NCBI GenBank assembly: GCA_016208235.1
Contig: JACQYN010000257.1
Coordinates: forward strand, 1-38,162
DNA from: Deltaproteobacteria bacterium
Lineage (GTDB): Bacteria > Desulfobacterota > Desulfobaccia > Desulfobaccales > 0-14-0-80-60-11
Reading direction: 5' to 3'
DNA length: 38,162 nt
Below are positions 2,155-36,841 of this stretch, piece after piece. The translations under genes and the position numbers were made by a program. Within the stretch, counting starts at the first letter, position 1; each line of letters opens with the position of its first letter. The notes under the pieces are model-generated. The model made no database searches. It was not told the DNA's origin and was given only the letters and a program-made list of their open reading frames with translations.

Positions 2155-2185
2155 CCGAAAACGGAAAACCGAAAACCGAAAACGG
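2155..2185. repeat. Short AAAACGG / AAAACCG tandem array
   Basis: CCGAAAACGG and GAAAACCG words follow each other without interruption just upstream of the Mu-like protease gene. A related array lies in frame inside the FtsX permease gene near 30292-30316. Confidence 0.75.
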
Positions 2186-2223
2186 TATTAAATCTGCCAT
2201 AAGGAGGAAGACAGGAAGATTAC

Positions 2224-21651: not shown

Positions 21652-21712
21652 GTTAATTTTCCATCCTAGATAAATGGATTAATACCAATTCGTTATCAAA
21701 GGTATGTTTTCC

Positions 21713-21770
21713 GTAGGGGCGAACCTTGTGTTCGCCCCGGACGCTGGGCGAACACAAGGTTCGCCCCTAC
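21713..21770. repeat. Perfect 25-bp-arm palindrome (GTAGGGGCGAACC family)
   Basis: Arms at 21713-21737 and 21746-21770 are exact reverse complements, around an 8-bp centre. The same arms occur exactly at 36752-36811. It sits inside the EPS operon between the chain-length and kinase genes, so the RNA would form a strong hairpin there. Confidence 0.92.
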
Positions 21771-21802
21771 AGGTTATTACCTTATAAAAGCAGCTGAGCC
21801 GT

Positions 21803-26551: not shown

Positions 26552-26814
26552 TTCACTCCCTACTGCAGGCATGGGAGGGGTTCGTTACCCACCCCCCGCC
26601 CTTTTACCTAAGATTTGTCTAATGCATCGGCTCCCTCGGGCCCGAACTTTAACTTCCGGGCGCCCGCGGTTATAATGGCAATTGCTCATGAGTTTTTGGC
26701 TCTCATAGAGAAAATGAGGTTTTACCAGTGACCTGTCCCAGGATTAGCCCAATAAAGTTTCGAGGGCTTTTCTTCCTCCCATAGAGGGGCTTAGGCGCTA
26801 ACTTAACCAATATT

Positions 26815-26899
26815 TGTCATTCTGAACGGAGCGAAGCTTCGTTTCGAATCTCGATTTTCCAATGAAATGAGAGATTCTTCGCTGCGCTCAGAATGACAG
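26815..26899. repeat. TGTCATTCTGAA-family palindromic repeat
   Basis: Left TGTCATTCTGAACGGAGCGA and right TCGCTGCGCTCAGAATGACA are near-inverted, with GAGATTCTTCG inside. It matches 32266-32350 almost throughout, and the match continues into both flanks (ATATT before, AGCCTTAT after). Confidence 0.88.
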
Positions 26900-26961
26900 A
26901 AAAGCCTTATATTAGGGCCTATGCCCTTGAGGGGTGGCTGGGGTGAGGGTGACCATTCTGC

Positions 26962-26987
26962 GGTGGGGCGGGCCTCCGTGCCCGCCA
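26962..26987. repeat. 26-bp GC-rich repeat, also inside the FtsX permease gene
   Basis: The 26-bp word beginning CGGTGGGGCGGGCCTCC is present exactly, in inverse orientation, at 30102-30127 inside the permease coding sequence. Confidence 0.9.
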
Positions 26988-27180: not shown

Positions 27181-27208
27181 AACTTTGAACCTTGAACTTT
27201 GAACTTTT
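27181..27208. repeat. Heptamer array (AACTTTG / AACCTTG)
   Basis: Four 7-bp units of the same family as 3544-3596, ending 48 bp before the ABC ATPase start. Confidence 0.75.
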
Positions 27209-27255
27209 CAAACCGGGAAAAACTGTTTTTCAGGGAAATTTTCCAGGAAATATCA

Positions 27256-27921
27256 ATGATTGAACTGACGGGGGTGAACAAAACCTACCGCCGGGGGCCC
27301 GAAGAGATTCTGGCCCTGAGGCGCATCAATCTCAGCATTGCCGCCGGGGAATTCGTGGCCATCAGCGGCAAGAGCGGCTGCGGCAAAAGCACCCTCCTGC
27401 ACATCATCGGCGGCCTGGAGCCCCCCACCTCCGGGCGGGTGATGGTGGACGGCCGGGACCTGGCAGGGCTTTCCGACCAGGAACTCACCCAATTCCGCCG
27501 GGACCGGGTGGGGGTGGTCTTCCAGTCTTTCAACCTTCTGCCCCTCTTGACCCTGGAAGAAAACGTGGCCCTGCCCCGGGTGCTCCAGGGTTTTTCGTAT
27601 TACCAGGCCCGGAAGGAGGCCGCGCACTGGCTCGAGGAAGTGGAGCTGAGCCACCGCCGCAGCCACAAACCCCACCAGGTCTCGGGCGGCGAGATGCAGC
27701 GTGCGGCCATTGCCCGGGCCCTGATCAACCGGCCCGCGGTGCTCCTGGCCGATGAACCCACGGGTAACCTGGACTCCGCCACCGCCGCCCAGATCCTGGA
27801 ACTCTTCGGCCGCCTGCACCGGGACTGGCGGCAGACCGTGGTCCTGGTGAGCCACGCGGCCGAAGTGGCCGCGTACGCGGACCGGGTGCTTTCCATGCAG
27901 GACGGGATTATACTCCCGTGA
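27256..27921 (+). CDS. ABC transporter ATP-binding protein (LolD/MacB-type)
   Basis: The ATPase partner of the FtsX-type permease that follows. It has Walker A (SGKSGCGKST), the Q-loop region VVFQSFNLLPLLTLEENV, the signature VSGGEMQRAAIARAL, Walker B (VLLADEPTGNLD) and the H-loop VLVSHAAE. The length of 221 residues is standard for LolD/MacB-type ATPases. The track start at 27199 lies partly in repeat sequence. The ATG at 27256 (MIELTGVNKTY) has a CCAGGAA upstream and matches the normal N-terminus. The substrate could be a lipoprotein, a lipid or a peptide; neighbours do not decide it. Confidence 0.93.
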   Translation: MIELTGVNKTYRRGPEEILALRRINLSIAAGEFVAISGKSGCGKSTLLHIIGGLEPPTSGRVMVDGRDLAGLSDQELTQFRRDRVGVVFQSFNLLPLLTLEENVALPRVLQGFSYYQARKEAAHWLEEVELSHRRSHKPHQVSGGEMQRAAIARALINRPAVLLADEPTGNLDSATAAQILELFGRLHRDWRQTVVLVSHAAEVAAYADRVLSMQDGIILP

Positions 27922-28269: not shown

Positions 28270-31053
28270 ATGAATCCTTTCCTCTTCCGCATCTCCCTGA
28301 GCCATTTTACCGAATACCCCGGCCGCACCCTCCTGGGCATTCTGGGCATCGCCCTGGGCACCGCGGTTTACTTAAGCATCTCCCTGGCCGCGGCCAGCGC
28401 GCTCAAAAGCTTCCAGGCCGGGGTGACCGCGGTGGCGGGGAAGGCCCAGTGGCGGCTGCAAAGCCCCGGCGCGCCCCTTTCTGAATCCCTCTTTGCCCGG
28501 GTACGGCGCTTGCCCGAGGTCAAAGCCGCGGCGCCGGTGGTGGAAAGCGTCCTGGAATTTACCGGACCTAATAAAGGCCCGGTGCTGCTGTTGGGGATCG
28601 ACCCATTCTCCGAACGGCCTTTCCGCAATTACGACTTTAAAGCAGCCAGCGGCCTGGACCGGGACGCGTGGATAAAGTTTCTGACCGAGTCCGGCGCGGT
28701 GCTGGTGAGCGAGCGCCTGGCCGCAAGGCAAAGATTGAAGCCCGGCGATACCCTGCCGGTGCTGGTGGGCACGGCCCGGCGGAACCTGAAGGTGGTGGGG
28801 GTTTTCCGCTCTCCCGGCGGCCTTTATCCTCTCGAAGGCGCGATGCTCCTCATTGACCTGGCCGGGGCCCAGGAGCTTTTGGACCGGGTGGGGCAACTGG
28901 ACTATATCGACCTCATCTTCTCCGGGGACGAAGCCGCGGCTGCGGCCCGCGTCTCCCAAAACCTGCCCCCCGGCGTGGACCTGGTGCGCCCCGGGTCCCA
29001 GGGCCGCCAGATGGAAGGGATGGTGGCCTCCTACCGCCTTAATCTCACGGTGCTCAGCGCCATTGCGCTGTTCGTGGGCATGTTCCTTATCTATCAGTCC
29101 GTCACCCTCTCGGTGGTGCGCCGCCGCCGGGAGATCGGCCTGCTCCGCACCTTAGGCATGGGCCGGCGCCAGGTTTTGTTTCTTTTTTTAGCCGAGGGCC
29201 TGGCCGGGGGCGCGGTGGGCGGCCTCCTGGGTCTGGGCTTAGGCGTGGTCCTGGGCAAAAGCGCCCTGGGGATGATGACCCATAATCTCAGTTCCCTCTA
29301 CACGCCGGTTCAGGCCGGAGAAATTTTTGTCCATACCCCCCTTCTTCTCCAGGCCTGGGGCCTGGCCGTGGCCGCCACTCTCCTGGCCGCCTGGATACCC
29401 GCCCGGGAGGCGGCCCGCACCCGGGTCCGGGCCGTGTGGTACCGGGAGGAACTGGAAGAGCGCGTCCAGAGCCGGACCGGGGTTTTTTTTGGCTTGGGCT
29501 TGCTGGCCCTGGCCCTGGCCGGGGTTTTTGTATTGCTGCGTTTAGGGTCCGGCCCTTCCCTTCCGAGTTTCGCCGCGGCCTTCCTCATCCTCCTGGCCTT
29601 TGCCCTGTTCACCCCCCTTGCCGCCCGCACCCTGGGTGAACGCGCCCAGCCACTCCTGCGCCGCGTTCTGGGGCCTCCGGGTGACCTGGGCTGCCGGTAT
29701 CTCTCCGGTTCCTTGAGCCGCAGCGCGGTCTCCATCGCCGCGTTGGCCTGCGCCTTGGGGATGCTCATTGCCGTGGCGGTGATGATCGGCTCTTTCCGCC
29801 AGGCCGTGAACTCCTGGGTGACCCGCTCCATCAGCGGCGACATCTTCTTCGGGCCCGCGGTCTTCTCCACCGCCGCGTATGATCACTATCTCCCCCCGGA
29901 AATCCTTACGGACCTGCAACAGGATCCGGACATTGAAGACATCTATCTTTACCGCTGCGTGCGCCTGCCTTTCCGGGACCGCTTTATCCTGGTGATCGGC
30001 GGCAGCTTTGACGTCCTGGCTAAATACGGCGGCCTCTGGTTCCGGCAAGGGGATGGGGCAGAGATAATGAAGGAAGTTGGGGAAGTAGGCCAAGGGGGTC
30101 CGGCGGGCACGGAGGCCCGCCCCACCGCGCCGGCACTGCCAAAACAAAATCCCCCCTACCCCCCTTTAGAAAAGGGGGGTGAAAGTTCTCCTTTATCAAG
30201 AGCGGTTAAAAGTCCCCCTTTCTTAAAGGGGGATTTAGGGGGATTTTCCGGTTTGGCTCAGCAGACTGAATCGAAAGATCTCCTCGGAAAACGGAAAACG
30301 GAAAACGGAAAACGGTCCATAGTCATCTCCGAACCTCTGGCCGAGACCTTCGGCTATAAAGAAGGAGATATTCTAGAACTCCCCACACCTGTGGGCCTTC
30401 AGCTCTTGAAAATCACCGGGGTCTTTTACGACTACCGCACGGACGGCCCCAGCGTCTGGATGGACCTCCGCCAGTTCCGGCGCTTTTGGCCGGATACCCA
30501 CCTGAACGCGGTGCGCCTTTATCTAAAGGACAAAGCGAAAATTCCCGAGGTCCAGGCCCGGCTGTACGAAAGATACGGCTCCCGTTACCGGCTCCTGACC
30601 CTATCCCACCAGGAACTGCGCCAGGGAATATTGAAAATATTTGATGAAACCTTTGCCCTCACCTACGCGTTGGAGGGGGTGGCGGTGGTGGTCGCGGTCT
30701 TCGGGATCATCACCACCTTCCTATTGCTCATCATGGAAAGGGAGCGGGAATTGGCGCTCCTCCAGGCCCTGGGGGCCTCCCGGGGCCAGATTCTCCGCAT
30801 GGTCCTGGTGGAATCCGGCCTCGCCAGCTTCCTGAGTTTCTTGTTAGGCGCGCTTTGCGGTTCCCTATTATCTTTATTACTGATTTATGTCATCAACAAA
30901 CAGGCCTTCGGCTGGACCATCCACCTCTACTGGACCCCGGGCATCTACTGGCAGACTTTTATCTTAGTCCTGGCCCTGGGCCTGCTCTCCGGGGCCTACC
31001 CTGCCTGGCGGGCCATGCAGCCGCATCTGTCTGCAATCCTAAAAGAAGAATAA
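28270..31053 (+). CDS. FtsX-type ABC transporter permease with repeat-derived insertion
   Basis: Two FtsX modules are present. The N-terminal helix (GILGIALGTAVYLSISLA) is followed by a periplasmic MacB-type domain. FtsX domain 1 (about 255-390) has RRREIGLLRTLGMGRRQVL, then come central helices near 400-520 and a second periplasmic domain (about 525-790). FtsX domain 2 at the C-terminus has ERERELALLQALGASRGQIL. Residues of about 596-682 are unlike the rest: proline-, lysine- and glycine-rich (NPPYPPLEKGG, SPPFLKGDLGG, RKTENGKRS). The DNA there consists of the same repeats seen between genes. Without this stretch the length would be about 840, usual for the family. The reading frame is kept. 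The start at 28270 (MNPFLFRIS) is chosen over the track start at 28228, which lies in repeats. Confidence 0.92.
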   Translation: MNPFLFRISLSHFTEYPGRTLLGILGIALGTAVYLSISLAAASALKSFQAGVTAVAGKAQWRLQSPGAPLSESLFARVRRLPEVKAAAPVVESVLEFTGPNKGPVLLLGIDPFSERPFRNYDFKAASGLDRDAWIKFLTESGAVLVSERLAARQRLKPGDTLPVLVGTARRNLKVVGVFRSPGGLYPLEGAMLLIDLAGAQELLDRVGQLDYIDLIFSGDEAAAAARVSQNLPPGVDLVRPGSQGRQMEGMVASYRLNLTVLSAIALFVGMFLIYQSVTLSVVRRRREIGLLRTLGMGRRQVLFLFLAEGLAGGAVGGLLGLGLGVVLGKSALGMMTHNLSSLYTPVQAGEIFVHTPLLLQAWGLAVAATLLAAWIPAREAARTRVRAVWYREELEERVQSRTGVFFGLGLLALALAGVFVLLRLGSGPSLPSFAAAFLILLAFALFTPLAARTLGERAQPLLRRVLGPPGDLGCRYLSGSLSRSAVSIAALACALGMLIAVAVMIGSFRQAVNSWVTRSISGDIFFGPAVFSTAAYDHYLPPEILTDLQQDPDIEDIYLYRCVRLPFRDRFILVIGGSFDVLAKYGGLWFRQGDGAEIMKEVGEVGQGGPAGTEARPTAPALPKQNPPYPPLEKGGESSPLSRAVKSPPFLKGDLGGFSGLAQQTESKDLLGKRKTENGKRSIVISEPLAETFGYKEGDILELPTPVGLQLLKITGVFYDYRTDGPSVWMDLRQFRRFWPDTHLNAVRLYLKDKAKIPEVQARLYERYGSRYRLLTLSHQELRQGILKIFDETFALTYALEGVAVVVAVFGIITTFLLLIMERERELALLQALGASRGQILRMVLVESGLASFLSFLLGALCGSLLSLLLIYVINKQAFGWTIHLYWTPGIYWQTFILVLALGLLSGAYPAWRAMQPHLSAILKEE
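30092..30316. repeat. In-frame cluster of intergenic-type repeats inside the permease gene
   Basis: In order: the 26-bp GGCGGGCACGGAGGCCCGCC word (inverse of 26962-26987), a CCCCCCTTTAGAAAAGGGGGG hairpin, a TCCCCCTTTCTTAAAGGGGG element almost identical to 34466-34503, and a GGAAAACGGAAAACGG array. All lie within codons 596-682 of the FtsX gene without a stop. Confidence 0.88.
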
Positions 31054-32131: not shown

Positions 32132-32254
32132 ATACCAAGTCGCAAACAAACCACGCGTAATTGTAGGGGCGCACCCGTGTGTGCGCCCTCAATCTGGGGC
32201 GGACACATGGGTCCGCCCCTACAAGAAAATTGTCGTTTGTTTGCGACTTGGTAT
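32132..32254. repeat. Compound element: 20-bp perfect terminal inverted repeats enclosing a GTAGGGGCG palindrome
   Basis: ATACCAAGTCGCAAACAAAC (32132-32151) is the exact reverse complement of the right end (32235-32254). Nested inside is the GTAGGGGCGCACC palindrome (about 32163-32222). This has the shape of a small non-autonomous mobile element or one repeat inserted in another. Confidence 0.9.
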
Positions 32255-32265
32255 TAAACAATATT

Positions 32266-32350
32266 TGTCATTCTGAACGGAGCGAAGCGGAGTGAAGAAT
32301 CTCTAATTTTCCTACGAAATGAGAGATTCTTCGCTGCGCTCAGAATGACA
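32266..32350. repeat. TGTCATTCTGAA-family palindromic repeat
   Basis: Second close copy of 26815-26899. The similarity continues about 10-20 bp into each flank, ending in AGCCTTAT. Confidence 0.88.
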
Positions 32351-32416
32351 AAAAGCCTTATGTTAACGCTTATACCTCCCCTCCCCTCCCCCCCACAAAA
32401 TCATTTCTAAATGTAA

Positions 32417-34406: not shown

Positions 34407-34465
34407 AACTTAAAAAAAAATGTAAATATGAGAAGTCTCCCATTATCAACAAGATTTGGTTATTA

Positions 34466-34503
34466 AGTCCCCCTTTTCTAAAGGGGGATTTAGGGGGATT
34501 TTA
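34466..34503. repeat. CCCCCTTTTCTAAAGGGGG palindromic repeat
   Basis: The hairpin is followed by ATTTAGGGGGATTTT. Nearly the same 35 bp occurs in frame in the permease gene at about 30212-30247. Confidence 0.88.
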
Positions 34504-36716: not shown

Positions 36717-36751
36717 GAAACAACGAATTGCGGTCAAAAAGGTATTAACAT

Positions 36752-36811
36752 GTAGGGGCGAACCTTGTGTTCGCCCTGGATAGCGCGGGCGAACACAAGG
36801 TTCGCCCCTAC
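36752..36811. repeat. Perfect 25-bp-arm palindrome (GTAGGGGCGAACC family)
   Basis: Arms at 36752-36776 and 36787-36811 are exact reverse complements and identical to those at 21713-21770; only the 10-bp centre differs. It lies between the convergent rel and rpmB genes and could fold in both transcripts. Confidence 0.92.
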
Positions 36812-36841
36812 GCAAAACTGACCGCTGATATCTGCTAGCTT

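Follow-up and report, generated by a model that had tools for sequence, protein, structure and literature searches.

The permease gene and its linker

The window, that is, the whole stretch of DNA analysed, is a contig (C238) of 38,162 nucleotides belonging to a Desulfobaccales assembly of 3.08 Mb in 272 contigs. It carries the gene of an FtsX-type ABC permease downstream of that of its ATPase partner, and part of the permease reading frame consists of repeats that also lie between genes of the same window. The features are as follows.

27199..27921, + strand: ABC ATPase partner gene (ABC_tran, Pfam), upstream of the permease
28270..31053, + strand: YbbP/LolCE-like FtsX permease gene, 927 aa, reading frame intact (ORF, Pfam, NCBIfam, fold match)
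30058..30316, + strand: repeat-derived linker, codons ~597-682, missing in repeat-poor relatives, residues 609-680 predicted disordered
30102..30128, + strand: GC hairpin repeat GGCGGGCACGGAGGCCCGCCCCACCGC, matched exactly in inverted orientation at 26960-26986
30146..30181, + strand: CCCCCTTT-family hairpin arm 1 (AAAATCCCCCCTACCCCCCTTTAGAAAAGGGGGG), coding for NPPYPPLEKGG
30182..30207, + strand: 26-nt spacer separating arms 1 and 2, common to relative G002
30208..30248, + strand: CCCCCTTT-family hairpin arm 2 (AAGTCCCCCTTTCTTAAAGGGGGATTTAGGGGGATTTT), coding for KSPPFLKGDLGGF, 95% copy at 34465-34502
30287..30316, + strand: heptamer array (AAAACGG)n, coding for GKRKTENGKR, copy at 2157-2186
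26960..26986, - strand: intergenic copy of the GC hairpin repeat
34465..34502, + strand: intergenic copy of arm 2
2157..2186, + strand: intergenic AAAACGG/AAAACCG array

The permease is of the YbbP/LolCE-like type, with a duplicated architecture of two MacB_PCD/FtsX modules (Pfam) and a matching fold. The best full-length fold match of its predicted structure is E. coli YbbP (YbbAP, PDB 9ge6, E 3e-22), followed by LolC/E and MacB, while its best sequence matches are LolC/LolE permeases. Its score against the NCBIfam lolCE model, 139.8 bits, is under the cut-off of 362 bits and so sets it apart from true LolC/E equivalogs. The known YbbP and LolC/LolE structures, of about 800 residues, have no such insert as the one described here.

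The sequence-only reading had assigned four repeat types to codons 596-682. All the matches are real, although coordinates and lengths needed small corrections: the supposed exact 26-bp match to 26962-26987 is in fact an exact match of 27 nt, inverted, between 30102-30128 and 26960-26986, and the near-identical 35-bp match to 34466-34503 extends over 38 nt at 95% (30210-30247 against 34465-34502). The resemblance of the array to 2155-2185 was borne out, with 93% identity between 30287-30316 and 2157-2186. The resemblance is not due to chance, as the host genome returns 77 matches to the linker segment at E<=1e-3, and the GC hairpin repeat was found at about 15 places in the stretches of that genome that were examined. 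Arm 1 (30146-30178) is an inverted copy of arm 2 (82%); the spacer in inverted arm pairs elsewhere in the genome is mostly 2-5 nt long, and 19 nt in one.

As first read, the frame stays open across about 87 codons and the peptide is rich in proline and glycine; both points hold, with no stop anywhere in the segment. The peptides within it include SPPFLK and GDLGGFSGLAQQTESK, and three heptamer units make exactly seven codons (KPETENR) where they are in frame inside proteins. The gene frame has no stop in the linker, and each of the five other frames has 1-6. Chance was rejected as the cause of the open frame, the probability for shuffled sequence being about 0.016, with the proviso that the species are not independent and that the product over them is therefore no probability. 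The RNA of the segment is predicted to fold at -81 kcal/mol (z -4.2).

Distribution of the repeats in the genome and beyond

The host genome holds 59 distinct CCCCCTTT arm loci, a lower bound, as the census was drawn from searches and selected genome stretches. They comprise 39 head-to-head pairs, 11 opposite-order pairs and 9 single arms. The permease pair belongs to the opposite-order group, which typically takes the form of a 78-bp unit whose spacer is short. The 78-bp unit, AAAATCCCCC...GGGGGATTTT, is present in several copies and has terminal inverted repeats, as MITEs do. Among these 59 loci (again a lower bound), the permease copy is the sole one within a recognisable gene. An ORF of 171 aa on contig C87 that holds an arm copy was not counted as a gene, having no Pfam match. 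Dozens of sites that are not within long ORFs would encode the same peptides as the arms.

Elsewhere in the phylum, outside this family, the CCCCCTTT repeat passed a strict cut-off in 22 of 297 genomes, and the long-ORF cases examined there were N-terminal read-throughs or doubtful ORFs. A search of a plasmid collection returned three short matches only. A 38-nt stretch of arm 2 (30208-30248) is 94.7% identical to two plasmids of Acinetobacter indicus, a phylum away, and 90% identical to a third Acinetobacter plasmid.

The window contains further repeats. Large GTAGGGGCGAACC palindromes, whose family numbers dozens of copies in the genome, lie at 21694-21783 and 36739-36830; this family is also present in the permease loop of relative G005. 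Two copies of a TTTGTCATTCTGAACGGAGCGAAG repeat, at 26803-26902 and 32254-32354, are separated by about 5.4 kb and lie in intergenic clusters rich in repeats.

The same loop in related genomes

The relatives are metagenome-assembled genomes labelled Deltaproteobacteria, Syntrophobacterales, Desulfobacca or Desulfobaccales. Permease orthologues were found in 20 of the 22 genomes of the family and the loop was recovered in 19, twelve of which carry in-frame repeats there. The remaining seven (G007, G009, G010, G012, G015, G017 and G020) have a short loop without repeats. The distance between the GGLWFR and SEPLA anchors is 30-42 residues in repeat-free relatives, outgroups of the order included; it reaches 72-121 residues in genus g1, 97 in G013, 57 in G008 and 67 in G016. 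The sequence-only reading had taken the loop to be new. Rather, it is an already variable loop that grew, and it is not new to the host genome, because every member of the genus for which that part of the gene was recovered has it.

The repeats recur across genera, but not the same ones. CCCCCTTT arms are found in the loop of the host (G000) and of G001, G002, G003, G005, G006 and G013 (a single arm in G003 and G005), hence in genera g1 and g8; heptamers occur in these genomes and in G008 and G016 (g1, g8 and g3); and a GGGGGCCAGGGGC hairpin occupies the loop in g6 and g9. The order of the arms is identical in G000, G001, G002, G006 and G013. The loops of G011, G014 and G018 were considered as repeat-free, a view abandoned because their GGGGGCCAGGGGC stretch matches 47-55 times in each genome; all three have a GGGGGAGGGGGCCAGGGGC hairpin there. 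Two further families are present in G005, one of CCCCTCACCC type and one a GTAG-hairpin element that is 130 nt long and occurs dozens of times; in that genome the loop frame is open to the end of the contig and the rest of the gene lies on another contig. In the 8 species compared directly, the segment is free of stops and of a length divisible by three. None of the relatives with the loop recovered carries the same segment devoid of similarity to repeats, and the suggestion of a hotspot or stepwise accretion is upheld by the different repeats that orthologues of other genera hold in the same loop.

A tree of the permease built without the loop groups G013 with G008 and G016, apart from g1, its deep forks being weakly supported. 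This placement implies two or more gains of the arms, or else a single gain with several losses.

Predicted structure and constraint

In an AlphaFold2 model (mean pLDDT 72, 23 sequences), residues 609-680 have a pLDDT of 22-30 and form the sole long stretch under 50. This predicted disordered segment is set in a well-predicted periplasmic domain, between helix 596-608 and strand 683-687; the loop precedes the strand SIVISE of the second periplasmic domain. Before and after the insert the protein is normal, as had been proposed, with MacB_PCD and FtsX domains in Pfam and a predicted fold on either side.

Comparison of the host with five relatives gave dN/dS values of about 0.12-0.21 for the flanks, summarised as about 0.13, and of 0.47-0.68 for the linker, which by this sequence measure is nearly unconstrained. 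Predicted to be disordered and apparently under weak constraint, the insert gives no impression of being a functional domain acquired by the protein. Without the arms, the linker is 48-68% identical in nucleotides between G000 and its relatives. The arms themselves are conserved at 71 of 72 nt in G002 and at 69 of 72 in G013; 23 of 24 third positions are identical in each case, against 67% and 57%, respectively, in the flanks. The binomial values for this excess, 9e-4 (G002) and 3e-5 (G013), are guides only, the arms being simple in composition. Those of G001 and G006 are less similar to G000.

Other genes with in-frame repeats

A second gene shows the same behaviour. An LpxK-heptosyltransferase (LpxK-WaaF) fusion (loci L205, L206, L207, L208, L211 and L212) carries arms in frame in its interdomain linker in G001, G002, G004, G005 and G006; in those five genomes and in G003, a transferase loop also contains a heptamer array. 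Its arms are identical at 67 of 69 nt, with 23 of 23 third positions conserved against 62.5%. The two genes are separate in g3, g6 and g9, and in G016 and G021 the spacer between the split genes holds a CCCCCTTT-type repeat. In G018, an in-frame heptamer array (KPRKPDTENRKPKTENR) lies inside the RibD_C domain of RibD (L200, contig C293). This RibD and LpxK-WaaF were the exceptions among the long ORFs of relatives in which heptamers or arms occur; the others that were read looked like extensions of the N or C terminus, ORFs on the opposite strand, or short ORFs.

Candidate mobilizing enzymes

Y1/IS200-like transposase genes are present in 18 of the 22 family genomes. G010, G015, G017 and G020 have no Y1_Tnp match and 0-3 repeat matches, a correlation that follows phylogeny, as three of these four genomes belong to one genus. 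Among 14 Y1_Tnp genes whose surroundings were examined, none was seen to be directly flanked by CCCCCTTT arms. As read from the sequence, these arms and the GC hairpin at 30102-30128 lack the GTAG/CGTC foot, while the hairpin element in the loop of G005 has a GTAG foot (GTAGGTGCGAACC). Other GTAG hairpins do flank Y1 genes. In G002, the permease is directly followed by a Y1/IS200-like transposase gene (L183:1027-1925, contig C12) set between GTAGGGTGGGC hairpins, and after it the final 69 nt of the permease gene appear a second time, at 91% identity. On contig C219 (L237) of the host genome, copies of the GTAGGGGCGCACCC hairpin family lie around a Y1_Tnp gene. Members of that family also occur in the window at 2001-2038 and 32161-32198.

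Origin of the linker

We consider it probable that small mobile repeats have accreted in a permissive loop, filtered for an open frame, and that the arms are kept near their consensus by exchange with intergenic copies. The loop before SIVISE would tolerate extra residues. Short palindromic repeats, abundant in this Desulfobaccales family, would have entered it at different times and in different lineages through transposition of hairpin elements, perhaps by means of Y1/IS200-like transposases (RAYTs). Insertions that shift the frame or bring in stops would presumably be purged; the remainder, open and in frame, would be translated without harm into a peptide that is disordered and nearly neutral. 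The arms would be maintained by intergenic copies, through conversion or reinsertion.

Conservation of the arms could also reflect selection, acting on the peptide or on the DNA or RNA hairpin. The expanded loop might be adaptive, its Pro/Gly-rich peptide serving in partner docking, lipid handling or periplasmic spacing, with the arms under purifying selection. The peptides NPPxPPLEKGG and KSPPFLKGDLGGF are indeed kept in several species, and the silent sites of the arms drift less than the flanks. However, these silent positions are as conserved as the amino acids and their identity is therefore not predicted by selection on the peptide alone; moreover, the same peptides recur at dozens of places outside long ORFs, sister genera hold other repeats or none in the loop, and the rest of the linker has diverged to the extent given above, so that an adaptive role appears unlikely to us. 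We give slightly less credit still to a single old ancestral insertion conserved for a function of the DNA or mRNA hairpin, such as translational pausing or mRNA stability. The very stable predicted RNA and the common arm order in five genomes fit this explanation, but it leaves the unrelated repeats of G005, G011, G014 and G018 unexplained and demands losses in G011, G014/G018 and G008/G016 (on deep forks that are weakly supported), and the same elements fold alike at intergenic sites. For the identity of the arms, exchange with intergenic copies or recent reinsertion is favoured over hairpin constraint.

Two explanations remain. Translational bypass could remove or skip the segment, or the gene could give two separate products; the exceptional stability of the mRNA hairpins is what speaks for this, but bypass would not require the stop-free segment, divisible by three, seen in the 8 species, and we hold it to be highly improbable. 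An assembly or binning artefact at a repeat comes to mind because the genomes are metagenome-assembled and contigs break at the loop in G005 and G011. It is the least credible of all, an error being very unlikely because independent assemblies from different sites (DeMMO6, WY4, SURF_52 and Lac Pavin) agree on the same loop with in-frame repeats.

Comparison with known repeats

The STRR of cyanobacteria are 7-nt units found mainly in intergenic arrays. The TAACTGA repeats of Beggiatoaceae are likewise 7-nt units in mainly intergenic arrays (PMC4679880); compared with both, the heptamers described here have a different unit and also occur in frame inside proteins.

The Rickettsia palindromic elements (RPEs), of about 150 bp, lie in frame in many unrelated genes (Ogata 2000, 2002; PMC10969869). 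As far as these accounts describe them, the likeness is close: palindromic repeats in frame in ordinary proteins, read as extra peptide, and, in our case too, a multi-copy palindromic element in a conserved gene without loss of frame. By the same accounts, RPEs are scattered over genes, whereas the repeats here are almost all intergenic, the permease standing alone among the 59 host loci rather than being one of many unrelated genes. A further difference from the RPEs as reported there is that several unrelated families share one loop, which is found across genera with differing content. Prokaryotic MITEs (ERIC, BOX, Coxiella QMITE1) are small, non-autonomous inverted-repeat elements that likewise make translational fusions (PMC10969869). 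For the repeats described here, neither a parent insertion sequence nor a target-site duplication was noticed.

On intragenic RAYT/REPIN repeats, the literature yielded one relevant paper (Di Nocera 2013, PMC3733652). The GTAG/CGTC REPs that it describes are short hairpins, also arranged as HH/TT dimers, which are mostly intergenic, in some cases inside ORFs, and linked to RAYTs; REP clusters encode 43-82 aa, and different REPs occupy nearly the same site of recB in two Xanthomonas species. The CCCCCTTT arms are short hairpins as well, but without a GTAG or CGTC foot, are mixed with heptamer arrays, and differ less from species to species than the silent sites of the flanks do. The permease case belongs beside RPEs and intragenic REPs (PMC10969869, PMC3733652), as a multi-family, multi-lineage accretion at one site.

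Implications

Repeats inserted in frame have been known from single, scattered cases; what is new here is the pile-up of several families at one loop. Its gain of different repeat families can be traced across about 19 species, and a second gene behaves alike. The long-standing question of whether insertions of this kind are junk that is tolerated or material from which new parts of proteins arise thereby becomes directly testable. The silent sites of the arms, far more conserved than those of the host gene, would point to ongoing exchange between intergenic and coding copies. More tentatively, a few protein loops in this bacterial family may act as intergenic DNA inside genes, gaining several repeat families independently in different lineages and exchanging sequence with intergenic copies. 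If this is true, a protein loop and the mobile repeats of its genome evolve in concert.
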